Program-made: the position numbers and the translations under genes
Shown: positions 13,547 through 36,329 of the stretch, in pieces
Layout: the number at the start of each line of letters is the position of its first letter
Numbering within the stretch: position 1 is the stretch's first letter
The notes under the pieces: generated by a model
What the model saw: the letters and a program-made list of their open reading frames with translations, nothing else
Told to the model about the DNA's origin: nothing
Database searches by the model: none
Origin: a virus
Reading direction: 5' to 3' (one strand)
DNA length: 37,086 nt
Virus record (IMG/VR): IMGVR_UViG_3300032182_000533
Location: 1-37,086 of that record

Positions 13547-15145
13547 TTAGAACTGAATAATGACTTTAATATCTTCTTTTTGATTTTTAGACCTTGTGAT
13601 AGGAGGTCTATTATCAATGTAAATTAAATCACCAGAATAAGATTGAACTTCTGGATTTGATAACCCATTTACAAATGGTTGACCCAAGTAATATGTCCTA
13701 TTATTTATTGCTGTACTTATACCGGGTTCTAAAACAGTTCCAAAGAAAGTATCTATCCCAACTGTTGAATCTGGAGATGATCCACTACGAATAGCGTCTA
13801 CTGATGGATATGATCTTATGTTTGTATTTCCTCCCGATTCAGGCGAAGATGTAAAATCATATTTTAAGTAACTATAAATTTCTTCATCTTGATTACCTTG
13901 AAAATCAAACCCATTTTGAGTTCTGTCCGACCAATACTTTAAAATACCAGTATTCCTATCGAAAGAAATAACTCTTGCTATTGCTGTTTTTCCGGCACCG
14001 ATAGTTTGAGTAATATATGTATCAGCGTTATAAGTTGCATCATTTATAACCAAAGGATCTAATTTTATTGCCCCAACAGCACTTGCTTTATCTTTTGTCA
14101 ATATTTCATTTGAGTTAAATGCTAAAGGGTTTGCTACTATCCCAATCTGAGATATTTCATTACCTACAATAAAATCTGGATCTTGGTCATCATTTTCAAT
14201 TCTGGAATAAATTAGAATACTTGTTGCTCCAAGTTCTCTGTAAATATCTGCCCCATGACCGCCTTTAGGGGGAATAACAACTTCAAATACTGGTTTTGTT
14301 GTATAGTTAAAAGAAGAAGCATCAACATCAACAGTTCCATAAGTATATCCACTTCCGCCATTTGAAACTGTTACACTTTCTACTTTGCTGTCATTATTAG
14401 TAACTATAGTAACTGTTCCATTTTGTCCATCACCATTTATTGGAATATTACTATATACCGTATTTGGTTGCCCTACGTCTACTCCTCTATTTTTGATTAT
14501 TACTGTTTTTAACTGTCCACCATCTGCAGCATTTTCTCTAACAGTTGCTACGTCAACATTGTCTTTCCAATTTCTAGGAACTGGTACATATTGTGTAGAA
14601 TCAAATTTTATAACATCACTAGCAGAAATAGTATACAAATATTTCCAAATATAACCATCTCCACTATTTCCTGCGGATCTTGGTTCTAAATCGGTAAATC
14701 GGGGTTCATCTAAAGATGGTTTTCCATTTGGATTTTCAGGATCTTCTCCATTTTCTAAACAAATATAAACTCTAAAATCGCTGTTTACAACATAATAATT
14801 TGAACTGTATAAACTAGTTGCCGATGTTTGATTAGATGTATTATCTCTATCAATGTTGTCTCGGTATCTATCAAATATAACACCAGAAATCCAGTCTATT
14901 TTTCTTACAACGTTTTTAACATCTTCATTACGAATTCGCTTTAATGCAATCATATTGTCCCAAACAATTCTTTCTTGTTGGAAACTGTCTTTTGGTGATG
15001 GTGGACTTTCGTCCCATGTTGAACTATAATCAAATGGATTAGGTAGTCCAACAAAAGCATAATAAGAATTTGATGGATCCGTTACCTTCTCCAAAAAACT
15101 ATTTGCGTTTAAAATTCTTAGTTGGTCGGTAATGATTGCAGCCAT
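13547..15145 (-). CDS. 8: Baseplate wedge protein gp8
   Basis: The 532-residue product keeps the hallmarks of T4 gp8 (334 residues), a dimeric component of each baseplate wedge. At about residues 158-172 it has SGDGYIWKYLYTISA (T4 PGDGYVWEYLFEIPP). Its end, GDLIYIDNRPPITRSKNQKE then DIKVIIQF, mirrors T4 GEMIYMENRPPIIMAMDQTE then EINILFTF. The N-terminal part also corresponds (YYAFVGLPNPF; WDNMIALKRI; YRVYICLEN-like). The roughly 200 extra residues lie between these landmarks (about 200-480) and include a Gly-Tyr unit (NGGSGYTYGTVDV), suggesting insertion of the same module seen elsewhere here. It follows the 2757-residue gene and has late promoter boxes upstream. The start lacks a clear Shine-Dalgarno site. 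Confidence 0.9.
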   Translation of the reverse strand: MAAIITDQLRILNANSFLEKVTDPSNSYYAFVGLPNPFDYSSTWDESPPSPKDSFQQERIVWDNMIALKRIRNEDVKNVVRKIDWISGVIFDRYRDNIDRDNTSNQTSATSLYSSNYYVVNSDFRVYICLENGEDPENPNGKPSLDEPRFTDLEPRSAGNSGDGYIWKYLYTISASDVIKFDSTQYVPVPRNWKDNVDVATVRENAADGGQLKTVIIKNRGVDVGQPNTVYSNIPINGDGQNGTVTIVTNNDSKVESVTVSNGGSGYTYGTVDVDASSFNYTTKPVFEVVIPPKGGHGADIYRELGATSILIYSRIENDDQDPDFIVGNEISQIGIVANPLAFNSNEILTKDKASAVGAIKLDPLVINDATYNADTYITQTIGAGKTAIARVISFDRNTGILKYWSDRTQNGFDFQGNQDEEIYSYLKYDFTSSPESGGNTNIRSYPSVDAIRSGSSPDSTVGIDTFFGTVLEPGISTAINNRTYYLGQPFVNGLSNPEVQSYSGDLIYIDNRPPITRSKNQKEDIKVIIQF

Positions 15146-15186: not shown

Positions 15187-15194
15187 TATTTATG
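15187..15194 (-). promoter_or_regulatory. Putative late promoter (distal) upstream of gp8
   Basis: CATAAATA on the minus strand, 41 bases before the gp8 ATG and overlapping the stop of the preceding gene. It is either a tandem late promoter with the box at 15165-15172 or a chance match in AT-rich DNA. Confidence 0.4.
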
Positions 15195-18100
15195 AGTTAG
15201 GGGTATACCCCTCAGATTTTAATGGATTTGTTCTAATTACTTTTGCTGTGGTTGTTATTCCTGGATTATTTTCATTAACAGTAGATCCATAGTCATCATA
15301 TAGTTCAAATGTTTTTCTAGTGGTTCTCTTGTAGTTAAATATTCTTCCCCAAGAATAATCTCCAAAATATCCATTGTAAGTATATCCAAACCCAACATTT
15401 CCATCAACTTCTCCAGCTGGTCCTCCACTTGGAATATCTATTTGGTTCCAACTTTCAACAGGGACAGTAACTTGTAAAACTTCAGTTCTGCCACTTCCAA
15501 CATTTAAACTGTATACTTCAGTTCTAGCAATACTAACTGATGAGACTTGATAGACACAATCTAAAAAGCTTGTTCCTATAAAATGATTTTGACCATTGTA
15601 TATATTCAATGATGTTATCCCATATCCAGTTAATCCAAGATTAGAGTTGTTTACACGGAAATAATCTCCTCTCTGCAGGGTACTCAGAACTTTTGGATCT
15701 GAAACTTGTATATTTCTTAAATAAGAATCATTTTCTATATAAAGTTCAAAAACAATACTATTTTCAAAAAGATCTGGAGTTGGATTTTTAAAGATATATG
15801 AAATTCCTGATCTATCATCAGATCCAGATATTTCACTTCCAGGAGCACCAACTATTATCACTTTACCAGTATCACTTATCTTGCATGATCTTCCAAAATC
15901 TGCATTAACTTCAATTGAGTTCGATCCCGATAACTTCTTAACTAACTTATGGTTCTTTCCAGTTCTCTTATACACATATGTTGCACCACAATCATTAAAA
16001 CCAAGAGCCGGATCATCTTTGGATCCAACAATTACTGTTCTACCATTACCTGAAATACTAACACTAGTATCAAGTGTTTGATCATCTAGCACTATAGTTT
16101 GATTAAGAATCCATTTTAATTTTACTTTATTAAAATCATAAATGTAAGCATATTGAGATCCAGCAAATCCTCCCTCAGAAATTACCATAGTTGTTCCTTG
16201 GAGTGAAATATCAACAGAATAACCAAATCCAAGACCTCTTACTAATGGCTCTTCAATTATAAATGTTTCCGTATATAATCCACTAGTAGCATTTTTTGAA
16301 TAAACATATACTTTATTATCTTGATATGATCCCACACATAATGTTTTACCAAACTCATCAAAAGAAACAGAACACCCAAATTTAGATCCAACAATCGCTT
16401 CAGAACCAGTAAATCTTTGTAATCTTAAGTATGTTCCTACACCAACAACTTCTCTTTCAAAAAGATATACATATCCTTCATTTTCTGACAATGCACCTGC
16501 AGATATTACCTTTCCATTTGTAGTTATATCAATAGAGTCTGCTAATACAGACGTTTCATTAACTATAACAGTAAATCCTATTCCAGATCTAGCATCAAAT
16601 GCATTTAATTGAGTGAAAGTATCTCCTGATCTTTCATAGACATGTAATACACCACCATTAGTAACACCTATTTCATCACTGGGAGCACCAACAGCGACAA
16701 TGGTTCCATCACCACTCATTCCAACCGATCCTCCATATGAATCTGTAGTATCTCCATCCGAAACTAATTGACTTAAAGTTGCAATTCCAGTAATCGTGTC
16801 AGTGTCGTAGTCATAGTCATAAACGTAAGCAAGTCCAGTGTTTCCTGACCCAATAAACTCATCAAAAGGAGCGCCAACTACAAAAGATGATCCAGTTTTA
16901 TTCATCGCAACAGAAAATCCAAAGTTATCTGCTGAGTCTGAAGCATATACTCCAGTTACGAGACCAACCTGTGTTATTGGTTCTGGAACTGCTCCTGTCG
17001 TCCCTATTCCTGTCAATACGCCAAAATCTCCATCATAAATTACATCTTCTATTCTCTCATACTTTGTTTTTGGAGGAGATATAAACACATTTGGAGCAAC
17101 GTCTGTATATCCATATCCTGGATTTGTCACAGTTATGCTAGTAACTCTTCCATCAGTTAAAGTTGCTTCAGCTTGTGCTCTTTGATTTGATGTTGTTCCT
17201 ATTCCAGTAAAGTTTGGATTTGATATTGAAACATCTGGAGTTTCTATGTAATTAAATCCAGGATAATCGATATTCACCGAAGCAACTCTAAGATTGTTGG
17301 ATAAAGTAGAAGTAGCACTAGCTGCTATTGCTACTCTTTCTTCAATAATAAAAACATCTCTTTGTGGTTCTTTATTTACTCCAACATCTTCATATTCATC
17401 GTTGCTATCAAAGAAAGTTCTAACATTGTCTAAGTAAATATCATTTTCAGTGCTTCCTATACCAACAGAACGCAATAAAGTTGTTTTTGGATAAATTTCG
17501 GGTTCATAAGGTTTTCTTGACTTTCCAACTACATTACCATCAATAATTTTGTCTACAAGTTGCTTACACCAAGTAACTGGTCTTTGTAACGTTTCATCTA
17601 AAGTTACTCCTGGTGTAGAGTACGTATTAGTTTCTAAAATATCAGTTGCAGTAATATCGGTTACAGTTCTAGGATCTTGCTGTAAAGAAATATCTTGACT
17701 ATTTACTGTAACGATATCACCAATTTTTATAGTTTCTAAAATATCTACAAATTGAGTATCAACTTCGGTTGTTCCAAAATAAAATACTATTACACATTTA
17801 TCTCCTTCATTAGGTGGCTCTACAAATGTTAATATACTTCCACCCTCAAACTTATATGCTTGATTTGGGACTTGGTATATATCATTTATAAACACTATTA
17901 AGTTATATTCTAACTCTAGTGGAGATCCAGGACGTGATCTTAAAGTAGTTTGTATTCCTCTTAAAAGTATCGGGAAATCTACTCTAGATCCGTTAAACAA
18001 TCTACTAATATCGTCAAATACTACTAAGTCTCCAAAAACTAAACCAGCAAATGAATCAGTAAATGTTTGATCAATCAAGACCTGAAACTCTTCAAATGTA

Positions 18101-21100
18101 TTTCCGGTAGTTACATCGTATGAATAAACTACACCAGTTGTTCCAATGCCAACATCATTGTAAGAATCAAACTGAGCGCCGACAAGTAAGTTATTGCCAT
18201 CACCGGATAAAGAAACAGAAGTTCCATAATTTGCATTAAGATTATTGGCATATACACCAGTTTTTATTCCAACATTTACATAATCAAGACCAAAATAGTT
18301 AGATGTTCTTCTTTCGTACAAATATACTACACCACTAGAATCCGGAGAACCTGGTTGTTCATCATCAATAGCACCAACAGCAATAATCCGCCCATCGTCA
18401 CTTATAGAAATAGATTCTCCAAATCTATCGCCAGTTTCTTCCGAGTATAACCCCTTCAAAACTTGAACTAGGTAAAAATTATTTCCATTTATTTTTTCAA
18501 AAACATATACTAATCCAGTTGTGGGAAGTCCAAGACCTGATTTATCATCTACTGCTCCAATAGCAATTATTTTTCCATTATTACTAACATCCACACTATA
18601 TCCAAATTTATCTCCAATTTTTAAGGTCGTTAATTTTGGAGATGTAATTATTCCAACTTGATTTATTGTCCCTAAATCTTTTTCGTAAACATAAACAAGA
18701 CCGAAATTATCATTTGGATCTGTAGTATCTTCATCAAATTGAGCACCAACAGCAATATAAGCTCCTTCTGGACTTATAGCAACTGAAGTTCCAAAATTAT
18801 CACTTGGGTCTACAGCAAGAGATCCCTCAATAATTCCTATTTGAATAAATTGAATCGGAGGTCCATCATCTCTCTCGTAAACATATAATAATCCAGAGTT
18901 TGTTGCATTTAAAGGTGCTTCATCTCCAATTGCTCCTACAAGTATTACATTACCATCTCTTGACATATCCACAGACCAACCAAAGCGATCTCCAGATCCG
19001 GAATAAAATCCACTTAATATTCCAACAGTATTAAATCCTACTGGAGGACCATCATCTCTATCATACAAGTAAACTTGACCAGATTGTATACCTACAGTAG
19101 GGTTCTCATCAAATGGAGCACCTACTACTATTTTTGATCCATCACCACTAATAGCGATAGAGAACCCGAAGTTATCATCTTGATTAGATGCGTAAGATCC
19201 AGTAATAATTCCAACTTCATTAAATGAATTTCCTACTCTGTCAAATGCATATACTATTCCAGAAGAACTTTCTGATCCGTCGATATTATCATAAGGTGCT
19301 CCAACAATAATTCTGGTTCCATCGGTATTATTATCAACTTTAAAACCAAACCTGTCGTTAATAGTTGTAGATAATGATCCTGTGAAAATTCCTATTGCAT
19401 TAGATACACCAGTAACTTGGAAAGTTGCAAATGTTGGTATTCCGGTTGGTCCACCGACAGGAACAGTCAAGATCTCACCTTGTCCATAAGAATAACCAGA
19501 TCTTGTTAACTCAAACTGTTCTATTTTTCCATCATTTCCAACAATTAAATCACCAATAGCGTAAGATCCAATTCCTTGAGGTGAATCATTAGAATAGATG
19601 AGATTTATATTATTGTATGATAAAGGACTATCAATATTTAAGTAAAAATCATCATATCTTATAATTTCTACTCTATCCTCTTGAAGTATATTTTCAGTAG
19701 TAATATTTTCCGAAAGATTTAAAGAAAACTCACCTACTTCTAAAATATTATATAATTTTTTACTGAAAATATAGTCCGGGAACCTTACGAAATCAGTATA
19801 TGTATTAATTCCAGATGTATCTGATATTTCAACAATACTTTGTCCAGTAAGGGCAGTTTCTCTTGCGTTTATATTTTTAATTACATTGTATTGTGTAAAT
19901 CCTATTCCAGTGTTTGTTATAACAGGTTCTTTTACTTTACCGTCATATATTGTAGAGAATCCTATTAATACTGATTGTTCTCCTTGTGTTACATTTCTAA
20001 CTTCCCCACCACCAAGATAAGTATGCGGTCTTACAGTTTTTCCGGTATTTAAAATAAATGTGCTATCGGAAAGTTTTTCAATTACTTCAAACTCAAATCC
20101 AAATCTTCCAGATGGTAGTAAAATAGTTGCAAGGACAAAATCACCAGACGATCCATTTATAATATTTACTGGAGAAGGAACAGAATTTTCATCAACATTT
20201 ATTGTAAATCCTTCCGTAGAACCGTTATATGAAACTGGAGTGTCAATAACAGTATAGTTAAATCCATCTAACTCCGTTCCGGTATTTCTTATTAAGACTA
20301 AATCACCGATATTAAGTTCAGTTTCTTCATCACCTACATTAGTAAATGTAACTATCCCTGAGGTGTACCTAGTTTGACCTGTAGAGGATTTTACTGCCTG
20401 TGTGATAGCACTATCGAAAGTATGAGGATAAACGTCTCCAGGTTGACTATAACCAACGTATACGACTATCTTATCGTTATCCGGTACGTCTAAAACTTCT
20501 ATAAGTCTATTATATGCATAATCGCCTTCTCTTGGATATGAGGATGGATCTGGACCAAGAGTACATGTAAAAGATAATCCTTCTTCTTCTAAAAATACAA
20601 AATCTCCAGTAACAACTTTAATAGGATATGGTGTTTCGGTGTTAACGCCAACAAAACTGTGCAGTCCAGTGGATCCATTACCATCCCCAGCATTAAACTC
20701 AAATGTATTTCCGGTAACATTACTTATTGTGAGCAATGTGTCATATGCTGGATCCGGATCACCATCGCCAGCAACTGGTCTCGGATAATACGTTACACCA
20801 GAACCTTCAGTACAACTAAATCCAAGAGATTCGGGTGCTAATAATATTTTATCTCCATTTGTAAGTCCTGTAGTGTCTAAAACAAAAATAGTAGTGAGAC
20901 CAGCAGAAGTTCCATTTGGAGTATATTGAGCATCAGTAACGGAATACGCTAATCCCGCTTGTAATTCATGATCGGATGCAAATGTTATCGTCGAAATACC
21001 GCTTGCCGCATCATATGTAGCATCAATAACTTCCGGTAAAATGCCTAAAGTTGATGCATTTACTCTCTCAAAGGTATGAACAGAGTCATTTTCTCCTGCT

Positions 21101-23463
21101 GCACCAACATTAACAACTACTGATGTGGCAGTAGTGCTTAAGATTTCATAGTTTCTCTTATAGTTTGCATCATTAGGTCCCGGATAATAAGACGTTGTAG
21201 CATTTAAATCCAACTCACAGCTAAAACCAAGTGCTTCTGGTTCAATATAAAATCTGTCTGAACTGAATGTGTGAACTCCTACAAAAACTGTTGCTATTCC
21301 ACTTACTGGATCATAAATGGCATCATATACGCTGCGTTGTTCGTTAATAGATTCATCAACAACAATGTCATCAATCAACTGTCTTCTGTTTACAGAAAGA
21401 CCTTGAGGATTAAAAGCTCCTCCACTATCACAAACGTATTTAAAGTTTCTCAGATCTACAAAGTCACCCTCTAAAAAGTTGAGTCCAGGTGCAGTTATTG
21501 TAGTTAATCCAGTTTTTTCATCATAATCTGCTACAGTAGCATTATATGCCTTTACAGTATCAACATATATGTTTGCAAATCCTAGATTTGGATTTTCTAC
21601 TTTTAAGAAAACATTGTCCTGTACTGATGTTGAAGTTATTCCCGGTTTTAAAGTACTAACAACAACAGAAGAGTTATCAGCAAATGAATTTAAAGTTAAA
21701 GCATCTATTGTAAATGTTCTAAGTACATCATCTACCGCTATTATCTCTACATTTATAGCTGCATTGGTTACTGTCAAATAATATGTGGGATTTCCTGCAT
21801 CTGTACTAATTCCAAGGGTATCAAAAACATTAATTTTATCCGTCCCTATACCAGCAGGTTCTGTTGATGCAGTATCTCCAAAAAATTCATAACTGGAAAA
21901 CTGCGAAACTTGATCCCAAGCATCAGTTCCATTAGCAATATCCACAAATGTATCACCGATTGATACTACTCTTGTATTGTTTACAGTTGAGTTTAGATTA
22001 ATTCCAATACTATCTTCAACCGAAAGGGTGATAATGGTGTTTCCCGAAGAAGATAGTAAGTTAAGTTTATCAAACAAACCATCAACATCATTAATAAAAA
22101 ATCTATTTGATGGTGCTTCTGTTGGATAAGTTATTTTTGAGGTTAACGTTAAAACTTCAGGTGCTCTATACCCGGATCCAGTATATCCAATAGATATTTC
22201 TGATATAGTTCCTGCGGCAGAAACAGTTGCAGTTCCACCAGCAGCAACAAGTGGTTGATATCCATATCCTTCATTATTTCCGATGGATACTATTATTCCA
22301 CCTCTAGGTATTGATGCGGTATTAATATCTTCGGGATTTGAATTTACATTTCCAGTAAATCTAATCGTTGTAACCCCAGCACTTTCTCCGAGACCATAAT
22401 CTATAAAATCTGGAGTTTGAAAAACATTATTAATAAGGACTAACGCATTCCCTGTAGAAAATCCAGTAACATTATCGCCTTGATTTTTTAAAACTGCCTG
22501 AGTGCTTATTCCTAAAAATTGGTTAGAGATATCATCCAGTAAAAAGTTTCTTTCATATGGACCTATTGTAGTATCTTCAAATCCTGATCTTAAAAATACT
22601 CTTCCATTAAAAGTTGAAAACGTTTCTAATCCAACATAATCCCTATCCAATGGATCAGTTCTAGTAAAATCTGTGGTTGGACTTTTATCAAATGGAGGAA
22701 CAGGAAAGTAAATAATATTATCTACAATTTGATATGCTCCAGTTTGCTTTACAACTGGATCACCGGCAAGATGGTCTTCTAAGTTTGATCCTAATATCGG
22801 TCTTCTAACAACAAATGTTGTACTATTGCCAGCACCAACGAACTCGATTTTCATGAGTTCATTTCCAATTCTAATTAAATCACCAGTGAAAAACGAGGTA
22901 ACACCAACAACAACTGCTAAATCACTAGCACCGGAAAAATCTTCCAGTAAAGAAGTTTGTATTTGAGTATCAATTGACGGAGTTTGTATTACATTATCAA
23001 TTGTTATTAAACTTCTAGTATTTGGTTTTTCGCCAATAAATTTATGAGACGCTCCAATTCCAGCTCTTGCTATATCAAATACTTTTGGGATTCTTTGTAG
23101 TGCATCTTCTCTTGTTTCTGCCAACTGTAGAAACTGATTATCTGGAGCAACTGCAAAAAGAGTTCTTGGCAACCTCGAAGTGATTCCAACATTAACGACA
23201 TTAGTTTCAGCAATTCCAATGGCATTTGAATTGCCTTCTGTCGCATTGAGGAAATCTGGGAACTGATACTCTAATTGTTCTCCGGTTTTGAAAAAATGAT
23301 TTGGTAAGCGAATTCTGTTATTTGTGCTATCTACAACAAAGTTATTTCCACCATCAAATAGTCTATTAAAAATAGTATCTCCTTTGTGCCTCAGTTCAGC
23401 ACTAAGTTGAACATCAAATAACCTTCCGATAAAAAACCCAGTACCAGCGTTAATAATTCCCAT
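15190..23463 (-). CDS. Giant virion protein with two seven-blade FG-GAP-type arrays (2757 aa)
   Basis: I do not recognise a T4 gene product over the full length. Visible parts in order: an N-terminal region (1-about 400) with two 'xINNVxQTP' type segments (IDNVIQTPSIDT, LINNVFQTPDFID); Gly-Tyr units near 390-440; a Cys-containing repeat region (about 670-1030); seven FG-GAP-like units (about 1360-1783); a linker (about 1785-2165) with VFINDIYQVPNQAYKFEGGS and two more Gly-Tyr units; a second set of seven FG-GAP-like units (about 2165-2560); and a C-terminal domain containing YFGDYSWGRIFNYKRTTRKTF. FG-GAP units are beta-propeller blades in integrins and in many secreted adhesins. The gene sits between gp7-like and gp8 genes, so a baseplate location and a role in binding or spacing are inferred. 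It starts 19 bases after the previous stop; no strong ribosome binding site is seen. Confidence 0.85.
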   Translation of the reverse strand: MGIINAGTGFFIGRLFDVQLSAELRHKGDTIFNRLFDGGNNFVVDSTNNRIRLPNHFFKTGEQLEYQFPDFLNATEGNSNAIGIAETNVVNVGITSRLPRTLFAVAPDNQFLQLAETREDALQRIPKVFDIARAGIGASHKFIGEKPNTRSLITIDNVIQTPSIDTQIQTSLLEDFSGASDLAVVVGVTSFFTGDLIRIGNELMKIEFVGAGNSTTFVVRRPILGSNLEDHLAGDPVVKQTGAYQIVDNIIYFPVPPFDKSPTTDFTRTDPLDRDYVGLETFSTFNGRVFLRSGFEDTTIGPYERNFLLDDISNQFLGISTQAVLKNQGDNVTGFSTGNALVLINNVFQTPDFIDYGLGESAGVTTIRFTGNVNSNPEDINTASIPRGGIIVSIGNNEGYGYQPLVAAGGTATVSAAGTISEISIGYTGSGYRAPEVLTLTSKITYPTEAPSNRFFINDVDGLFDKLNLLSSSGNTIITLSVEDSIGINLNSTVNNTRVVSIGDTFVDIANGTDAWDQVSQFSSYEFFGDTASTEPAGIGTDKINVFDTLGISTDAGNPTYYLTVTNAAINVEIIAVDDVLRTFTIDALTLNSFADNSSVVVSTLKPGITSTSVQDNVFLKVENPNLGFANIYVDTVKAYNATVADYDEKTGLTTITAPGLNFLEGDFVDLRNFKYVCDSGGAFNPQGLSVNRRQLIDDIVVDESINEQRSVYDAIYDPVSGIATVFVGVHTFSSDRFYIEPEALGFSCELDLNATTSYYPGPNDANYKRNYEILSTTATSVVVNVGAAGENDSVHTFERVNASTLGILPEVIDATYDAASGISTITFASDHELQAGLAYSVTDAQYTPNGTSAGLTTIFVLDTTGLTNGDKILLAPESLGFSCTEGSGVTYYPRPVAGDGDPDPAYDTLLTISNVTGNTFEFNAGDGNGSTGLHSFVGVNTETPYPIKVVTGDFVFLEEEGLSFTCTLGPDPSSYPREGDYAYNRLIEVLDVPDNDKIVVYVGYSQPGDVYPHTFDSAITQAVKSSTGQTRYTSGIVTFTNVGDEETELNIGDLVLIRNTGTELDGFNYTVIDTPVSYNGSTEGFTINVDENSVPSPVNIINGSSGDFVLATILLPSGRFGFEFEVIEKLSDSTFILNTGKTVRPHTYLGGGEVRNVTQGEQSVLIGFSTIYDGKVKEPVITNTGIGFTQYNVIKNINARETALTGQSIVEISDTSGINTYTDFVRFPDYIFSKKLYNILEVGEFSLNLSENITTENILQEDRVEIIRYDDFYLNIDSPLSYNNINLIYSNDSPQGIGSYAIGDLIVGNDGKIEQFELTRSGYSYGQGEILTVPVGGPTGIPTFATFQVTGVSNAIGIFTGSLSTTINDRFGFKVDNNTDGTRIIVGAPYDNIDGSESSSGIVYAFDRVGNSFNEVGIITGSYASNQDDNFGFSIAISGDGSKIVVGAPFDENPTVGIQSGQVYLYDRDDGPPVGFNTVGILSGFYSGSGDRFGWSVDMSRDGNVILVGAIGDEAPLNATNSGLLYVYERDDGPPIQFIQIGIIEGSLAVDPSDNFGTSVAISPEGAYIAVGAQFDEDTTDPNDNFGLVYVYEKDLGTINQVGIITSPKLTTLKIGDKFGYSVDVSNNGKIIAIGAVDDKSGLGLPTTGLVYVFEKINGNNFYLVQVLKGLYSEETGDRFGESISISDDGRIIAVGAIDDEQPGSPDSSGVVYLYERRTSNYFGLDYVNVGIKTGVYANNLNANYGTSVSLSGDGNNLLVGAQFDSYNDVGIGTTGVVYSYDVTTGNTFEEFQVLIDQTFTDSFAGLVFGDLVVFDDISRLFNGSRVDFPILLRGIQTTLRSRPGSPLELEYNLIVFINDIYQVPNQAYKFEGGSILTFVEPPNEGDKCVIVFYFGTTEVDTQFVDILETIKIGDIVTVNSQDISLQQDPRTVTDITATDILETNTYSTPGVTLDETLQRPVTWCKQLVDKIIDGNVVGKSRKPYEPEIYPKTTLLRSVGIGSTENDIYLDNVRTFFDSNDEYEDVGVNKEPQRDVFIIEERVAIAASATSTLSNNLRVASVNIDYPGFNYIETPDVSISNPNFTGIGTTSNQRAQAEATLTDGRVTSITVTNPGYGYTDVAPNVFISPPKTKYERIEDVIYDGDFGVLTGIGTTGAVPEPITQVGLVTGVYASDSADNFGFSVAMNKTGSSFVVGAPFDEFIGSGNTGLAYVYDYDYDTDTITGIATLSQLVSDGDTTDSYGGSVGMSGDGTIVAVGAPSDEIGVTNGGVLHVYERSGDTFTQLNAFDARSGIGFTVIVNETSVLADSIDITTNGKVISAGALSENEGYVYLFEREVVGVGTYLRLQRFTGSEAIVGSKFGCSVSFDEFGKTLCVGSYQDNKVYVYSKNATSGLYTETFIIEEPLVRGLGFGYSVDISLQGTTMVISEGGFAGSQYAYIYDFNKVKLKWILNQTIVLDDQTLDTSVSISGNGRTVIVGSKDDPALGFNDCGATYVYKRTGKNHKLVKKLSGSNSIEVNADFGRSCKISDTGKVIIVGAPGSEISGSDDRSGISYIFKNPTPDLFENSIVFELYIENDSYLRNIQVSDPKVLSTLQRGDYFRVNNSNLGLTGYGITSLNIYNGQNHFIGTSFLDCVYQVSSVSIARTEVYSLNVGSGRTEVLQVTVPVESWNQIDIPSGGPAGEVDGNVGFGYTYNGYFGDYSWGRIFNYKRTTRKTFELYDDYGSTVNENNPGITTTAKVIRTNPLKSEGYTPNS
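15784..16970 (-). repeat. Second array of seven FG-GAP-like blades
   Basis: About residues 2165-2560 of the 2757-residue protein. Seven units of roughly 55 residues follow the pattern xxFGxSVxxSxxGxxxxVGAPxDE...GxxYVYxRx. Clear copies begin ADNFGFSVAMNKTG, TDSYGGSVGMSGDG, GSKFGCSVSFDEFG, LGFGYSVDISLQG and ADFGRSCKISDTG. Two units are degenerate (VLADSIDITTNG, DTSVSISGNG). The typical integrin calcium loop (DxDxDGxxD) is not kept, so this is closer to the FG-GAP_2 type. Confidence 0.8.
18115..19385 (-). repeat. First array of seven FG-GAP-like blades
   Basis: About residues 1360-1783 of the 2757-residue protein. Seven units of about 60 residues: NDRFGFKVDNNTDG, DDNFGFSIAISGDG, GDRFGWSVDMSRDG, SDNFGTSVAISPEG, GDKFGYSVDVSNNG, GDRFGESISISDDG and NANYGTSVSLSGDG, each followed by xxxVGAxxDE and GxVYxYxR. 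Seven blades equal one closed propeller of the usual size. Confidence 0.88.
20380..21450 (-). repeat. Cys-containing tandem repeats (LGFSC type)
   Basis: About residues 670-1030 of the 2757-residue protein. Three clear copies run: [DE]xxxL[GS]F[ST]C, 8-10 residues, YPxP or YPRE, Asp/Tyr-rich stretch, ILxVxxxTxxVxVG, then HTF or HSF. They start near EALGFSCELD, ESLGFSCTEG and EGLSFTCTLG. A more diverged element (FKYVCDSGGAFN) precedes them. I recall similar repeats from other cyanophage giant proteins. Confidence 0.72.
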
Positions 23464-23482
23464 TTATCTTGTTTTATTTGTT

Positions 23483-26400
23483 TTAGAAACGACCAACGTT
23501 TATTTGGAATCCACGTATTTCTACAGTTGTTAAGGGTGCTGGAACAAACTCTAAGTTTGTGTTTGATCCCACCAAAGATGTCCTAAAAGATCCTATACCT
23601 GACTCTCCAAATACATTAGATGGTGCTGGTATAGTAAGAGTTCCAAATTCAGAAATATATGAGTTAATTTGATCATTTATAATCTGTATCTCACTAACTC
23701 TATATTCTCTATTTATTGGTCTATTTGTATTGATACCAGTGAAACCAAGAATAGTTTCCTCATCATTTGTTATATCATTTATGAATAATGCAAATGGTTG
23801 AGTGCCCTCAAACTTCCATAAGTCTGCACCTCCAGCTAAATCTGCAGCAGTTCCACTTACATTTGTACCCCAAGCATTAAATCCATTATCACCATCTCTA
23901 GAGACTTGTGTAGGAGCTTGTAGCGTTCCTCCAACTAATACATGTGTTTCGCCTATCTGCCATGCGGCACCATCCCAATATGAAACTACTATAGTAGTGT
24001 CTCCATATGGAGCAGCTATTTGATAATCTGATAATGTATTACCCCAAGAATAGGTATCAGTAATATAATCTTGTAGTATACCTTGAATACAATCACTACC
24101 CGATCCATCAGATCTTTGTAATGCTACTACTGGTTCGGTGCTGTAAGCACCAGCAGTCGATATTCCTAAAATTGGATTTCCATCAAAGTTTCCATAAGCA
24201 GTAGCACGTCTTTCCGTACTGGGAGATGCTGCTGAATAAACATAATACTTATAGCTTGTTGACCCTATCCCGGTTACAGAAGGTGCTATTACAGAGTTAT
24301 CATTTGATCCTGGTCCTTGAGTTGTCATTACGACAGGTTGATCCGATTCAAAATAAACCCATCCATCTCTTACCGAAGAAGTTAGTATACCTGCGGTATA
24401 CTTATCAAGCGACAATGTATCTGAAGATATTCCAAGAATTCCATTTGGATCTTCATCATATTGATTAATAACAGCATCCTCAAATGGAGCATAAACGTAG
24501 TATGTAGAAATTCCAGATGGATCTCCTCTATCTTCAACATACACACCAAATGTTGTTCCTGCATAGGAAACTGGAGCAGTTTTCCAATGTGCTCCTTGTT
24601 CTAAGAAATGAACTGCTTTAGTTGCATAATATCTAAATCCACTAGTAAATCCAACTGATCCCCTTTCAGGTTGATTTCCTGTAGTAAGAATAACTTCTTT
24701 GTAACCAAGGGTATTAATACCAACGATTTCAGTTTCAGGATAAATTGCGGAATAGTTCACCGTAGCATCATCAAATGCATACCAATCAGATATTCCATGA
24801 TCTCTGTCACCATAACTTATTGGAATTGGTGATCCTGTTTGTATTCCAGTAACATAAGGAACTATATAAGAGCACTTATATTGAGTCGTGTAATTAGTTA
24901 CTTGTATTGGTTCTGGTATCTCAGTTCCTATTCCAGACGCTTGGAATGATTGAACATTTCCCGTTTCGTAAGATAATGATCCGGTAACAGTTTTTTCGGT
25001 TCCTGCAATAGATACAGTTATTGTTTTTATATCATAATCATCAGTTAACTCTTCATATGGTGTTGCTATAATATCAGTTTGACCATCAGGAAGAACATTT
25101 ACACTATAAGAAACTATACCAGTTACTGCTTCATTAGACCCACCAGAAGTAGTTAATTCTCCATATTCAATAATTTCTGCGTTTCCATAATCATCTTTAA
25201 TAACAGTTATTTCATTTACTTGATAATAATTTGTTGTTGCAGATCCAGTTTGAACTATAATTTTAGATGCGGCATAAGTAGCACCAATTCCTATTATTGT
25301 ATTACCAACTCCCGCGAAAGAACCACTCGTAAGAACCCCGACCTGATTGTATATTCTAGCAATATCACCAAACTCCAAATCTTCAGTATCTTCTGGATCG
25401 TCTGTCATTTCTAAAATAATATAGTCAATCAAGAAGTTATTAATATCGGCTTTTTCTGGGAAAAATACTATATTTTGCTGACTACCAATGATTTCGGCAT
25501 CAAAAAATGCAAGATCATAGTTTGTTTCTACTCTTCCATACCTGTTAGTGAAAATACTAGGATCTTCTACATCATCATCACTGTTATGCACAGAAACCAA
25601 AATACTTGTTTGCTTATCAGTTGAAAATCTTCTATCTTGCACAAAGAAGAAAAACTTTCTAGTTCTGATGTCAAGATCGGATCTTGATACAATAGAAAAT
25701 GGTGTTTCTCTTGGTAAAGCATTAAAGTTTTTACTAATGTCATCAATATTCAGTACTCTATTTCCTCTAGACTCAATATAATCTTGAAGTATCACATTTC
25801 CAAATATTAACTCATTTGATTTTATTGGGTTTAAAGAAAAAGTAGTTTCCCTAACAAGATCAAAGTCATAATAACAGTTCATACTAACTTCAGATATAAT
25901 ATCTCCTATACCAAAAGAAATACCAGTGTCTTGTGATGTGGATATTCCACTGTATTGAATAGGCAAAGATTCGACTTCAAGTTCAGAAAATCTTTTAAAT
26001 CCTGCCGTATGGTTTAATGATCCAACAGCATCATCCCATATTCCAATAGGAACCTTAGACTTTAATGAGTACGAAAAATATTGATAGTAGTCACTATCAT
26101 TGGTTCTCTGTAGATCTTGATTTAATTTTCCTGTGTCAGAATTCCATCCTTTATTAACAACAGATGTACTTCCGGTTTTATAACCAGCATCAAATTCTAA
26201 CTTAGTGAGTAAGTTTGCTTTTGTTTTTGATGTTTGACCGATTATTTGGTCTCCTTCACCAAAAATAATTCTCTCAGCAATTTTTATATAGTCATTAGAG
26301 TTGTCCCATTGTTCGACAGTTCCAACTGAAGTCCCTGAACGGGTAACTAATTCTTCATCAATAATAAAATCATTTTTTTGCAGTTCTACTTCATAAGTTG

Positions 26401-29400
26401 GGAAAAACTTTACAGGCACAACCCTAGCAGATTGTGACACAATAGAATCCACACTATACTCATCACTTCCAGGAGCACCAAAAATAACCTCATCTGGAAT
26501 ATAACCTTTAAAGTCTAATGTAATAGATCCCGAAGAACCGCCAATGTTTGGATCTCTTCTAACTACTCTAAAAAATGCATAGTTATAGTTCTCAGAGTTG
26601 AATCCAGGACTAGTTCCTCCCGATGTTTCTTCTAAAGTTATAACATCTTCAATAAAAACAAAATCACCAAGTTCAAAAGGAAAATCAAATATACTACTGT
26701 ATTCTGTACCTAAGAAAACTTGAATTGTAGTTAAGTTACTAAATGGCAAACTATCTGGTAAAGTAAAATCATTTTCTTCTGCATCATCAGGAAGTTCAGC
26801 ATTGTCTGAAGCAGCAACAACTTCATTACTATCAGAATTATTTGCAATATCTAAAACTATTGGATTTGAAATATTTAAAAGTAAAGGAATACCATTTGTA
26901 TTATTTACTGGGACCAATCTTGGTACAATATTAGAAAGATTCTTTGTATTTCTAAGAATAGTAACAAAGTTATCTCCCAAGTCGTACTGAAGAACAACAT
27001 CATCGATTACCAAATCAGTTTTATTGTCTATAACTGCTATATTTGGTGCTTGTAAATAGTTTTTTCCATTATTAACAATGGAAATCTGTTTAAATGAATA
27101 CAGAGGTTCTACCTTGTAAATTGTTGGGAGACTAGCAATAGGTCTGATACTCAAATCGGAAGAATAATCAAATCCAATATCTTTTATGTTTACTGTTTTA
27201 ATTTCACCAATATTTGTACTGTTAGCACTTACAATACCTCCAGTTCCGGAATCACTAATTAAATTTGTTTCAGATGGAAGTTTGTAAAAATACCTCCCTT
27301 TATTTTTAACTGTTGCTTTATCTATTGGACCTAAAGCACTTTTAGATGAGGTTTTGTAAGTTATTACAGAATTATCGAGAGTATATAAGTCTCTTTCTGG
27401 ATCTACGGGTATTTGATATTTAAACTCTGAAAATAAAAATGGAGGTAAAGATGGATCTCTTTCAATCGGATCGAATATTTTATACTCACCATCATAACCA
27501 CTATTGACAACAGAAAGAATATTATTATTTTTTTGCTCAGTATCAATGGATATTAGTAACTTACTTTGTGGTATTGAATTAACATCAAGAGAGTTTAACT
27601 TATAATAAAGATTTTTAGGAGTATCTTCAGTAATTTTTACAGAAACTTTAGCAGAAGCATTAACTCCTATTTGACCAACTTTTGTTACATCAAACTGATT
27701 AGTATTTTTTGATGATATAAATGGGTGATTAAAGTTAGAATCTACAAATAGTTTAAAGTCAAATGCAGGAACACGTAAAGTTGAGTTTCCTTGAGTAAAT
27801 GACAATGTTTCGCTGGATAAATCAAATATTATAGTTTGACCAACTATTGCAGTTATTGGTGGGTTTATTGAATAAAATGTTCCATCAGTTGCACTGCCCA
27901 AATTTACAAACTTTGGAAACTCTTTTTTACTTTCATATAAAGTTTCAGACAAGGCAAAATCATTTCTTCCAATAGCAACAACGTAATAAATCTCATTATC
28001 AGATAAACCTATTATTGGATTTGATGAACGATATATTATTTTATCTCCTGTTTGATAATTATGATCATTAATTGTAAACGTATTGTTTGATAAATTTACA
28101 TCTGTATCAACAAAAGATTTTGGATTTGCTACTAAAAGTCGTGCGTTGTCATTATATTCTATAACGACGGTTTTTATATCATCTGGTTTTACTTTTATGT
28201 CTATCAAATCATTCGTTGTTAATCCATGAGAAGAAGCTGTTGATACCGTTACAATATTTTGAGAAACTTTTGCAGATAAAATATCACCTCTTAAAGTAGT
28301 TAGTTTATGGTTATCTCCATCTACGTATTTAAAAAATAACAATGGATCACTATTATCACTCAAATCTTCAACATTTCTATATGCCCCAAGACTACCAGTA
28401 GTTCCCAGTCCAACAAAAACTGTTGATAAACCTATTAAATTATCAGATAGTTTTACAACTTTTACTCTTGAAGGTAAATCAAAAGTATTAATTCCATCTG
28501 TAGATACAATTATTACTGGAGATGTTGTGTTACTATAATCTAAAACTTCGTTAGTTTTGAATCCATGATTTGGTAAATATATTGATTTTGTTGGAATATT
28601 TAAAAAAGATCCATCAATAGTTGGATATTTGAAATATATTGTACTTGTTATTCCTGGACCAGAAGTAGTTCCGACCCCAACAGATTCTTTAGCATCAAAA
28701 TAATAATCATAATTTGACTCAAGATTGTAATAAGTTTGTATTCCTAGATTTACATTAAACTTTCTAGATTTTTCTGTTAATCTTGTTCCTACGTTAAGAG
28801 TGCCTGGCGATTGAACTCCATTAGTCTCTCTATTAACTCTTATTAATTTAGAATTTTGATTTACATTTAATATTTTAATATTTTCTCCTGAAGGTAGAGA
28901 GTAAACATCATTTTCTCTTATCGATGGATAAGTTAAGTCACCAGAAACTTCAAAATAAGTAGTTATTCCAGTTACTCCACTTATTGGAACTTCTTTTGTT
29001 AAGAAAAGATTATTATTGAAAAAGTATATATCCTTGAATGTAATTCTTTCTATAGGAGTTGTTATTGAAACAACATCTCCAGTATTATATCCATGTGGTT
29101 CATTTGTAAATCCTATTAAATCGGTCCCATTGTCATTTTTTATAAACTCAACATTTTCAAAAGAAGACCTTGCTATTGAAACCGTTCTAACATCTTCTCC
29201 AACAATAGAAGAAACTACTGCTGTAGCGTCTTGACCTATAACATCACCGTTTTTAAAACTAATTTTATCGTTTACTTTATAGTTATTACCACTAACTACA
29301 ACATCAACAGATTGTATTTCTCCAAATGTTGCATATTTAACTTCACTAACTGGATCTTTAATTTTATTTGGTTGTAACAAATATTTGTAAAAACTTTCTT

Positions 29401-32400
29401 TAGTATCTTTTAACTTATAGGGATGTGTATTTCTATACCATCCTGTTTTATTAATATCGATATCATTTTGATTTGAATCTCTATCAAAGTTAAAATCTAT
29501 AGGTTTGGACTTAAATACATTTCCAATAACATATGGGAACTGTGGAGGATAACCTTTACCTTCGATTAAATTAGAACTAGTGTCTAGTGTACAAAAATAT
29601 GCATAAACTCCCTCTGGATAATCTGGAGTTATGCAAAATCTTCCATTACTTTCATCAAGATCGCCTTCGTTTGCTTCATTATATTCGTAATCTTCAACAA
29701 AAAACCCATTTGGATATTGTACAAAAGATGGACCTTCTTCTCTTTCAGTACCTGGTTTTATTTTATATCCACTTTTTAGTGCTTTTACAGTACCACTAGT
29801 TCCATTTGCAAATCCATATGGTCCATATATTGGATTTCCATCATAAGCCCATCCAACAATAGGAGAATGAGTTTTTATTACATTTCTATCAATATCAAAA
29901 TCTAAAACAGCACTATTATTCTGATCTATTCTATAAAGAACTTGTCTAAGTTGATCTGGAAGATATATGTGAGTATATTCAATTCCATATCTATCATTTA
30001 ATCCACCATACAAGATTCCGCCATCAGCAGTTTCCCTAAAAGTATCTCTATATCTTCTCAATAAGTTTAAGTTCCAAGATTTTATTGAAGAAAATACTCG
30101 TAGTCCCTCTCCAGTATCAATAATATCAATTTTTGTATTTTCAATAGTATATCCAGTACCTGAATAAATTATTCTAATTTCTGTAATTTTTCCATCTTTT
30201 AATACTGGTGTCAATACAGCTCCAATTCCATCCCCTCTTACAACTATATCAGGAACGGAAAAATAATTTTTACCTTGATTGAGTATTAAAACTTGTTCTA
30301 TAGAACCAGTGCTTGAAATAATTGGAAGAACTGACCCAAGTTCTCCTTTTCTAACAGAAACCTCTGGTTGTCTCGAATAGTTTATGATTTCTGATGTTCC
30401 ATATTTATCTCCTTTTTCAGAAACAAATATGTTTTCTATAGAACCTCTAAAAATTGGTTGAACTTTAGCATTTAAATCTTGCTGACCGGAAGTAGAAACT
30501 CCAATAAATCCAGTAATAGAAACATCTATTGGCTCATAGTTAAAGAAGTGTTTTCCAGTTCCTGAGCTAGTTATATTTACATATTGTTCTATAGTAAAAA
30601 AGAAATCTTTTGGATTTTCTCCACCGCTATTAACATTAGAAAGTTTAAATGTATCATTATCAATCTTAGTGACATAATAAGGAGAACGTTCTACTATTCC
30701 ACCTATTGGAGTTCCATCACTATAATGTATTATTAATTCTCCACTATTAAAACCATGATTAACTACTTTAATCTCGTTAGTTACTACATTTACATTAATT
30801 GCATCTGTAGATACCAATTTATTTTGATATCCCGATCCCGGAGAAATAATATTAATAGATCCAATCTTTGATTTATTTTTTACAGATTTAAATCCATGTA
30901 TTCCTAAAGATGTTGATGATATTTGTATTGTGTTGATTCCGGAAACAGCATCTTCTATAGATTTAAATAACTTTATATTAAATGAATCAACTACATTAAC
31001 TACGTATCTACTTTGTGGTTGAAGACCTTGTATTACTTGGTTAGGAGCATTTTCATAAGTAACTTCCTCAAAGTTTTCAAAATTATGATATGTACTAAAA
31101 CCAATAATATTATCGGTAAGATTCAAACTACTTGATGATGGTATAAACTCTGCAGTATATGAAAATGATTCCATAATGGGTTCTGCAATAGCCCCTTGAC
31201 CATTTCCACCATTTATGAAGATTTTAGGTGTTCCCACATAGTTAAATCCTTGATATAAAATATCAAGTCGCTTCAAATTTCCTACTACATTTGGATATAT
31301 AACACATCCACTTCCAATATTTCCAAGTGTTATAGAATCTGTTCCTATTCTTGCTTCAAATCCACCTGTTCCGCCTATATCTAAAGAAGTTCCTCCTTCT
31401 CCACCAAGACTCAATATTAAATTGTTTATTCTTACTATAGATCCTCCAGTTTGATTTACAAATAATTGCTTATTTCCAAGTACCAATGTTTTTCCATCAA
31501 TAACAATTGGTGTTCCTCCAACACCACCATATGTTATTGGGTTGACGTTAGAAGTTACTCCAAATTTAATAGGTTGTCCCGAAAAAGTAACTAATGTTCC
31601 CCTATCTGAAGAATATGAAAGTTTTGCTCCACCAAAATCATTAAGACTTAACTCTGGTGCGTGTATTACATCATAGTCTCGTCCGGGTGCGACAGCAATA
31701 ACCTCTTCGATTGGACCATAAAAAATATTATCACTAGATTTATAGTTTAATAGTTCTACGCCATTAAGAAAAATACCATTTGCACCGCTTCTAGTTTTTT
31801 CTTTTTTGGTGTCTAGAACTGGATCAGACAGTTTTCTGATAATATTTTGAGGACCTAACAACTGTGGGTTAAGATTTTCAGTTGAGTCAAAATCAACTAT
31901 TGAAAACTCAAAATATTGTAAAGAATAGTCTCCTTCTCTCGCAAAAGGTATAGAAGGATCGTCAGGTAAAACTAAACTAACATATTTTTCATTTAAAATA
32001 TTTGATCTGCTACTTGCTAGTTTTAGTCCATATGGATCACCAGATCCTCTAAATTCTTTAACATAGTAAATACCATCCGGAATTGGTGCGATACTAGGAT
32101 TTAAGTTTCTAAGAACTACCTCATCCCCAGTATAAAAACTATGTCTTAGTGCTTGATCACCTGTTCCACTATCAACAAATACTGTAATATATGAGTAATC
32201 TATATCACCATCTGTAAACAATATATCATTTTTTTGAAGTCCATCTGGACTTATTACACCAAAGTTATATTTACCGATTAAAGATCCATCCCTAACATCT
32301 ATACTGGAAGAGTAAGATGGTAGAGATGGGGAAGAAATATAAGTCTCATTATTTTTATTATCAATGTAAGTGTTTAAAACATTTACACTAAAAATATTCA

Positions 32401-34433: not shown

Positions 34434-36329
34434 TTAATTTCTTACTAATTTTGTCTTGTCGGAGTAGTTAGATGATGGTTTAAATAATGTTCCAGATAAA
34501 TCTGCTCCGGAACTAATAGTATCTGGTACTACATTCACTATTGAAGAATTAACATCAAGTTGTAAATATAAATCCTGTAATCCAATAATGTCATTAGATT
34601 TTGGTCTTGCAGATATTTCAACAACATTCTCACTTGAAATAGTTTTAGCTGTTTGAATAATATTTAGTGGATATAAAATAACCTCACCTTTAACATAGTC
34701 TATAGATCCTGCATTCCTTCTAACTATTAAAATATCACCTTCACTGCTTAACTTAAAGAGAACTAAAACTCCAGTTTTTAAATCTTTGTTTGGTCTATCA
34801 GTTATATAAACAGTATCAGAAACACCAGCAATTCTAAATCCTGATGATTTTATATTATTACCTTCTGAACATTCAATAAAAAACTCATTTCCAAAACAAA
34901 TTTCATATCCAGCAAACTCATTGAGTGCAGCCCTAATATCTCTTCTAATCACAATACTTGTAACATTAGAAGTTACTGAAGAACTAGATTGATCAATAAC
35001 ATTTAAAAACTTACTATATTTAAATCTTGCACCATATTGATTTAAATCAGAAGATTTTGAATATTTTGTAATACTATCAGTTACTAGTTTTGATACCTTT
35101 GTAGCACTTCCTATTTGTGCTGTGTTATAGTAAACGTTTGTTTCATATTCAACATAAAGATATTTAAGATCCAATATTTCAACAACTATTCCAGCAACAG
35201 TGTATCGTCTTAACTTTTCTACAATATCTCTTTTTACAAAAGCTGGTATAAACTGACCGTTTTGCGGTTTGATAGTTATGAAAACTTTTCCATATTGAGG
35301 TGGATCTAAAGTTTCACCACCAAAAACTGATATAGATTCTGTTTCAGCATATATTTGAGGAACAAGAACTTCGTAATCGGTAGCAGTTACTGCTCTATAT
35401 TGTGATGCATATACTTTAGGAGCATAATTTCTTATGGAGTTTACACTTTCAATTTCTTTTGCATTTCTAGATACCCCATCAGTTGTAACTACAGAAAATC
35501 CTTCAGTAATTATTTCATCATTATTTGTAAAAGTTCTCCCAGAGTAAGAAAAAGAAGAAACGCCATTTGCATCTTCTCCATTTGAGATGCAATAAGATAT
35601 TTCTACTATATTTTTGTTATCCAACTTTCTCCCAAATACTCCATCACCAAAAATTATTTCATATCTTTGATCTGAAATCTCTTGAATAAAATATATTTTT
35701 GAATCAGATTTTACATCAAAAAGACTGTCCGCTAGATTATATTTTTGAACATTGTCTCTATTTTCATTATCCCTAACAAAGACTGATATTGTAGAAATAT
35801 CAATATTTGAGTTATCAAGAATAAATCTTTGATTTGGATTTTTTAAATCAACAGTGAAATTTTGTGTAAGTAAGGTTCCCTCAACAACTTCAATAGATTT
35901 AAATGTTCCGGCATCTTCAATAACAGGAACTATAACGTCATCGAGAACATTATATGAAAATCCACCTCCAGTAGCACATAATCCCTTTCTTAAAGTTAAT
36001 GTAACTGGTCTTTGTGCTAAATCGGAAGTATCTATACTAAAACTTATATTTGCTCTTGCACAAGTTCTAGATCTTGGGACATATCCAATATTTCTAGCTA
36101 AAGAAACAACATTTTCTCTCAAAGTTGCACTGTCAATAAAAACTTCGTTGCTAATCATGTTAGCATTATACGAAGTTAAGTAAGTATTATAGGCAAGAAT
36201 TTCTATAACAGTAGAAAGTGCAGATCCTTCAAAATCATAATCAGTAAACTCTGAATTTGATCTTAAGTAATCTTTAATCGATGTTTTTATCTGATCAAAG
36301 TCTATATTTGAGAAATTTACTAATGCCAT
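34434..36329 (-). CDS. 6: Baseplate wedge protein gp6
   Basis: The 631-residue product is close in length to T4 gp6 (660), which forms the inner baseplate ring and links the wedges; it is related to the gpJ protein of P2-like phages. Matching segments: IKDYLRSNSEFTDYDFEGSA (T4 IEWLNGQNEFLDYDFEGSR), the following ILAYNTYLTSYNANM (T4 LLAYNTLYIQQFGNA), SLARNIGYVPRS (T4 QAAQDNGYLPTS), ISNGEDANGVSSFSYS (T4 STNGADANGAVGFSYA) and AVTATDYEVLV at about residues 312-322 (T4 CVTATDYDTFV). It directly abuts gp25: TAA of gp25 is immediately followed by this ATG, with no strong ribosome binding site, which suggests coupled translation. Confidence 0.96.
   Translation of the reverse strand: MALVNFSNIDFDQIKTSIKDYLRSNSEFTDYDFEGSALSTVIEILAYNTYLTSYNANMISNEVFIDSATLRENVVSLARNIGYVPRSRTCARANISFSIDTSDLAQRPVTLTLRKGLCATGGGFSYNVLDDVIVPVIEDAGTFKSIEVVEGTLLTQNFTVDLKNPNQRFILDNSNIDISTISVFVRDNENRDNVQKYNLADSLFDVKSDSKIYFIQEISDQRYEIIFGDGVFGRKLDNKNIVEISYCISNGEDANGVSSFSYSGRTFTNNDEIITEGFSVVTTDGVSRNAKEIESVNSIRNYAPKVYASQYRAVTATDYEVLVPQIYAETESISVFGGETLDPPQYGKVFITIKPQNGQFIPAFVKRDIVEKLRRYTVAGIVVEILDLKYLYVEYETNVYYNTAQIGSATKVSKLVTDSITKYSKSSDLNQYGARFKYSKFLNVIDQSSSSVTSNVTSIVIRRDIRAALNEFAGYEICFGNEFFIECSEGNNIKSSGFRIAGVSDTVYITDRPNKDLKTGVLVLFKLSSEGDILIVRRNAGSIDYVKGEVILYPLNIIQTAKTISSENVVEISARPKSNDIIGLQDLYLQLDVNSSIVNVVPDTISSGADLSGTLFKPSSNYSDKTKLVRN

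Follow-up and report, generated by a model that had tools for sequence, protein, structure and literature searches.

A 37,086-base IMG/VR virus record, analysed over its whole length (hereafter the window), encodes a 2757-aa protein with two blocks of FG-GAP-type repeats. The locus raises the question whether these blocks are two closed domains of a virion protein, as a first-pass annotation had proposed, and, if so, how such domains came to lie there and what they might do.

Gene order and the carrier protein

The minus strand of the window encodes, in order, gp25, the baseplate wedge protein gp6 (34434..36329, assigned by phrog_219 and the Gp6-like Pfam family), a 3649-aa protein (23483..34432), the 2757-aa protein holding both repeat blocks (15190..23463), the baseplate wedge protein gp8 (13547..15145; phrog_438, and Pfam Phage-Gp8 with E 2.9e-15), and a 2830-aa protein, followed by two neck proteins (head-tail adaptor and head closure), a tail sheath stabilizer, and the small terminase. 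This is the gene order of a T4-type tail and neck, and the source is a marine T4-like virus of bacteria. The closest named relatives of its gp6 are marine cyanophages, at ~55% identity; psbA, an indicator of the host, was found in none of seven related contigs, each of which is possibly a fragment. The 2830-aa protein that follows gp8 (5043-13535) matches DUF4815 and phrog_358.

The 3649-aa and 2757-aa proteins correspond to the N- and C-terminal halves of a split gp7-like wedge protein. Both match the baseplate wedge subunit family phrog_2885 (E 0 and E 2.6e-211, respectively), the N-terminal half covering profile positions 74-2743 and the C-terminal half those from 2929 onward. Jointly, the two proteins align end to end with gp111 of the Synechococcus phage Bellamy (4067 aa), annotated as the baseplate wedge initiator, gp7; the N-terminal half is collinear with its residues 3-2881 and the C-terminal half with residues 2972-4065. 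Collinear homology with this Kyanoviridae gp7-like family and the gene order gp25-gp6-gp7-gp8 assign the 2757-aa protein to the baseplate, and by the same homology the propeller protein is predicted to be part of the virion, in agreement with the first-pass annotation. The name gp7 itself rests on gene order and the annotation of the Bellamy record, since a sequence match to T4 gp7 was not found: searches of PDB sequences up to E 1 yielded no match for Bellamy gp111 or the N-terminal half, and only an insignificant one for the C-terminal half. The N-terminal half also includes, at residues 1520-1618, a YHYH domain (Pfam PF14240, E 6e-25) inside the baseplate protein.

Repeat number and predicted fold

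A unit profile was built from the seven units of block 1 alone and run on the whole 2757-aa protein. It recovered 14 units in two sets of seven, which span residues 1360-1797 and 2169-2571; the real block 2 scored 151.9 bits with this profile, versus 8.3 bits for the best of 1000 shuffles of that block. The Pfam family FG-GAP_2 (PF14312) matches the whole protein with an E-value of 1.4e-53 and 179.3 bits, against a curated cut-off of 23, and the blocks taken alone score 156.4 (block 1) and 70.7 (block 2). Counted as FG-GAP_2 units, the two sets of seven occupy residues 1361-1795 and 2170-2567, with ~370 residues between them. Self-similarity computed without any motif has a period of ~62 residues in both blocks, which none of the shuffles reached (0/200). 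No such peak was seen in the neighbouring region A or in residues 458-1277, and the linker between the blocks is borderline (7/200 shuffles).

Thus, repeat detection bears out the original total of 7+7, which had been reached by counting FGxSVxxSxDG units, but the exact consensus miscounts block 2, where two units (at ~2310 and ~2466) lack the FG pair and three units are weak. Since FGxSVxxSxDG is not matched by all units, the count of seven for block 2 depends on the profile together with the orthologues and the structure model. Scans of viral contigs revealed eight contigs with the same arrangement, including two near-identical copies (L017 and L018). Seven units make up block 1 in all carriers (seven distinct orthologues) and block 2 in all carriers having it (four distinct orthologues), although in one contig (L027) its seventh unit is visible only with a refined profile. 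The orthologous propellers have the same positions and counts and are 37-65% identical to those of the window. A sample of 80 bacterial loci with FG-GAP_2 arrays served as a yardstick; exactly seven units were found in 46 of the 66 complete arrays, and fourteen in 7 more. Seven is the family norm, which supports a closed ring and at the same time makes the number unremarkable. Hence, the earlier argument from the number seven to two domains stands for separate closed domains, whereas 7+7 is the FG-GAP_2 expectation and no special signal.

Based on the unit profile, fold matches, and insertion borders, propeller 1, with seven FG-GAP_2 blades, was delimited to residues ~1350-1797 (18073..19416, minus strand), and propeller 2, with seven more divergent blades, to residues ~2160-2571 (15751..16986, minus strand). 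Positions 15784-19385, originally proposed for the arrays, thus mark the right region with slightly too narrow limits; the spacer measures ~365-375 aa, near the ~380 residues first estimated.

AlphaFold models, one per block, were obtained from alignments of 13 sequences. In both of them, seven four-stranded blades are predicted, and the strand preceding blade one completes the last blade; ring closure was deduced from the order of the strands and the fold matches rather than from coordinates. The pLDDT values are mostly 65-95 in the propeller regions, whereas the surrounding scaffold is poorly modelled (<50 over most of the linker). Among PDB structures, integrin alpha heads are the top fold matches of both propeller 1 (model residues 73-513; Z 34.3-36.6, rmsd 2.9-3.5) and propeller 2 (model residues 376-786; Z 33.7-36.2), with matches spanning ~350-385 residues. 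A seven-bladed WD40 protein is nearly as good (Z 33.8-34.5), and when PDB sequences were searched with the profile of propeller 1, only marginal matches to integrin alpha-E (E 0.007) were obtained. The predicted structures agree with the description of the FG-GAP_2 family as a closed propeller, usually of seven blades. The proposal of two separate closed seven-blade domains is therefore upheld by the models, both of which close, match integrin heads with Z >33, and show seven blades each and no open solenoid. As far as the architecture alone is concerned, the blocks are almost certainly two closed seven-bladed FG-GAP_2 beta-propellers, each present as a whole-domain insertion. A loose or open array with an accidental seven is scarcely credible: the three weak units of block 2 and the two units without the FG pair would fit it, but the count of seven recurs in all distinct orthologues of both blocks and is the modal one among the complete bacterial arrays, and both AlphaFold models close into propellers. 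Open solenoids and chance repeats were rejected on the strength of the shuffles, bacterial counts, fold matches, and autocorrelation.

The propeller of alpha-integrins is defined by seven four-stranded blades, an FG-GAP/Cage motif in each of them, and the calcium motif DxDxDG in several (PMC3192720). Judging by strand order and fold matches, both predicted propellers have seven four-stranded blades. The FG-GAP/Cage motif (aromatic-G, 13-20 residues, P, 2-15 residues, G) occurs at three places per block, not at seven, and DxDxDG was found in neither propeller, a lone Dx[DN]xDG being located at residue 1377. The description "integrin-like" given to the arrays at first thus fits the fold and not the mechanism, because the integrin calcium motif is absent. 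The phage propellers resemble the N-terminal beta-propeller of alpha-integrins in their seven-bladed fold (Z 33.7-36.6) and in the cage-like FG...GAP spacing of some blades, but differ from it in the missing calcium motif, in sequence (~15-24% identity), and in having neither an I domain nor a known partner chain.

Insertion borders and history

Gap lengths between conserved anchors of the gp7 scaffold were compared between carriers and distinct propeller-less relatives. Anchor B (residues 1278-1350; 19414..19632, minus strand), located just before propeller 1, and the C-terminal anchor D (residues 2574-2753; 15205..15744, minus strand), located after propeller 2, were defined by alignments with Bellamy and the relatives. 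Anchor C, between the propellers (residues 1792-2156; 16996..18090, minus strand), was defined by the Bellamy alignment; it is 40% identical to Bellamy residues 3521-3888 and 63-78% identical inside the propeller clade. The B-C gap is 433-445 aa long in the carriers versus -4 to 1 aa in 80 distinct relatives, and the C-D gap 410-425 versus 11-16 aa in 81 distinct relatives, corresponding to insertions of ~440 aa (propeller 1) and ~415 aa (propeller 2). Each propeller is a precise whole-domain insertion at a loop site of the wedge protein. In three close relatives (L016, L021, and L131), propeller 1 is kept and propeller 2 is missing.

A third insertion (residues 458-1277; 19633..22092, minus strand) is ~820 aa long (~600 aa in L021), with 31-33 residues in its place in most propeller-less relatives; at this size it is specific to the propeller clade. 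It weakly resembles phrog_17885 (tail fiber) and phrog_3442 and matches no Pfam family. The two halves of the gp7-like protein are encoded by open reading frames 19 bases apart (23463-23483), and the identical split was observed in every propeller carrier whose contig covers the junction (6/6). A tie between the split and the propellers was considered and found weak, since five relatives without propellers (L156, L160, L231, L232, and L252) are split as well.

In the tree of the conserved inter-propeller segment (anchor C), the carriers are monophyletic (support 0.999). In the tree with 42 bacterial arrays, phage propellers 1 and 2 form a single clade (0.976) and group by insertion site, with support of 1.0 for propellers 1 and 0.873 for propellers 2. 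As the carriers constitute a single clade and each propeller is the nearest kin of the other, a single capture of a propeller module with subsequent duplication is most likely. The clade ancestor would have captured the module, a duplication would have followed, and some members would have lost the second copy or never have acquired it. The propeller 2 copies of L017 and L019 have higher scores with propellers 1 than with the other propellers 2, and given these scores, separate gains of the second copy may be an alternative to one duplication with losses. A named bacterial donor was considered and rejected, since the best bacterial arrays are ~25-35% identical and are spread over many phyla. 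A viral scan by exact patterns with propeller 2 alone retrieved no relatives, the orthologues having come by other routes.

Possible roles and related systems

By analogy with other propellers, the two domains are likely to provide extra binding surfaces, with the host surface or neighbouring tail parts as the ligand. VCBS-like propellers, the group to which FG-GAP belongs, usually have carbohydrates as their ligands, and also proteins (PMC9218822). In passages of PMC4901313, a five-bladed propeller of the phage phi11 baseplate is the proposed receptor site. T4 gp7 is part of the outer baseplate pins (PMC3004832), so the discs would be expected at the periphery if the name gp7 is right. A propeller has its N and C termini close together (velcro closure), so that each disc could bud from the wedge scaffold and leave it undisturbed; two discs would thereby be added to the periphery of the baseplate, with their loops as the binding surfaces. 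The ligand would most probably be a host-surface glycan or protein during attachment, and less probably another tail part. Neither propeller is required for the baseplate, since propeller 2 is missing in three relatives and both are missing in most gp7 relatives. The architecture and an accessory binding role, taken jointly, are somewhat better than an even proposition.

The best-surviving competitor, which we consider possible but not probable, is a structural role with no host contact, the propellers acting as rigid spacers, stabilising or enlarging the wedge through internal contacts, or offering docking sites for fibres and other baseplate proteins. It agrees with the position of the propellers within a wedge scaffold protein adjoining gp6 and gp8 and with the use of the same fold in integrins, where it serves protein-protein docking. 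The dN/dS values are 0.13-0.35 for the propellers, 0.04-0.18 for anchors A, B, and C, and 0.18-0.20 for anchor D; the propellers diverge faster than anchors A, B, and C, yet are under purifying selection, a pattern that also counts in favour of a binding role. Loop variation in propeller 1 differs little by face (0.49-0.50 versus 0.54-0.58), the faces being too even for one to stand out as a rapidly changing binding face, and neither a binding-site signature nor a DxDxDG metal site was found in the propellers, which counts against a binding role. Purifying selection and the lack of strong loop hypervariability speak for the structural role, whereas the faster change of the propellers relative to the scaffold and the presence or absence of propeller 2 among close relatives point to an accessory part and not a load-bearing one.

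An enzymatic function, e.g., on a surface polysaccharide, like that of propeller-fold tailspike sialidases, is highly improbable: propeller enzymes do occur in phage tails (endosialidases, in passages of PMC4901313), but the sequence matches here are to FG-GAP_2 and to no glycosidase or lyase family, and the best fold matches are integrin heads and the WD40 protein. As an elaboration of the binding role, the pair might constitute a host-binding device, i.e., an integrin-fold adhesion module of bacterial origin, duplicated and mounted on a contractile-tail wedge; we regard this as unlikely. If true, the baseplate would grip the cell surface independently of the tail fibres, and the second disc would be gained or lost with host changes.

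Both the fold and the repeat family have been described before, and database records already contain large phage proteins with FG-GAP_2 arrays; what is new here is the paired, exactly bordered propeller insertion in a wedge protein. A paper joining FG-GAP, phage, and baseplate was not found in the literature searched, with most subscription journals outside the search. Bacterial PF14312 propellers share the repeat family, the usual count of seven, and in some arrays 14 units, whereas here two arrays stand apart within a baseplate protein, with conserved phage scaffold between them. Bellamy gp111 shares the scaffold over its full length and the location between gp6 and gp8, but is encoded by one unsplit gene, has neither propeller, and shows no Pfam match in its C-terminal part. 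The receptor-binding protein of phi11 likewise places propeller domains around a phage baseplate, but it is a separate homotrimeric protein of a siphophage with five blades, and the passages of PMC4901313 do not mention FG-GAP repeats. In the present locus, the insertion of whole domains and their probable duplication within one gene can be followed cleanly in a tail baseplate, and the big wedge protein of T4-like marine phages is shown to accommodate large accessory domains. With the states of none, one, and two propellers all preserved with exact borders, function could be tested across relatives differing by one disc.

FG-GAP_2 arrays also occur in very large proteins of phages S-MbCM25 (S-MbCM25_079, 7022 aa, located between gp6 and gp9/gp7) and C48C1, but these are only 24-29% identical to the propeller protein here. 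Outside the repeats, the 2757-aa protein has short weak matches to S-MbCM25_079 and none to the C48C1 proteins. Given this identity and the near-absent similarity outside the repeats, these arrays are probably independent captures, that of S-MbCM25 apparently a separate one in the same gene neighbourhood. In the Synechococcus phage S-MbCM25 record (L004:654-21722), the 7022-aa structural protein between gp6 and gp9 has ~5-7 FG-GAP_2 units. Among viral proteins, the fold matches include predicted FG-GAP proteins from both phages and giant viruses. Several FG-GAP-like arrays were observed in large hypothetical proteins of the Sinorhizobium jumbo phage Phosso (L005, L007; seven places in one record), and in viral contigs L008-L013, open frames carry 14-19 FG-GAP_2-like units arranged in several blocks.
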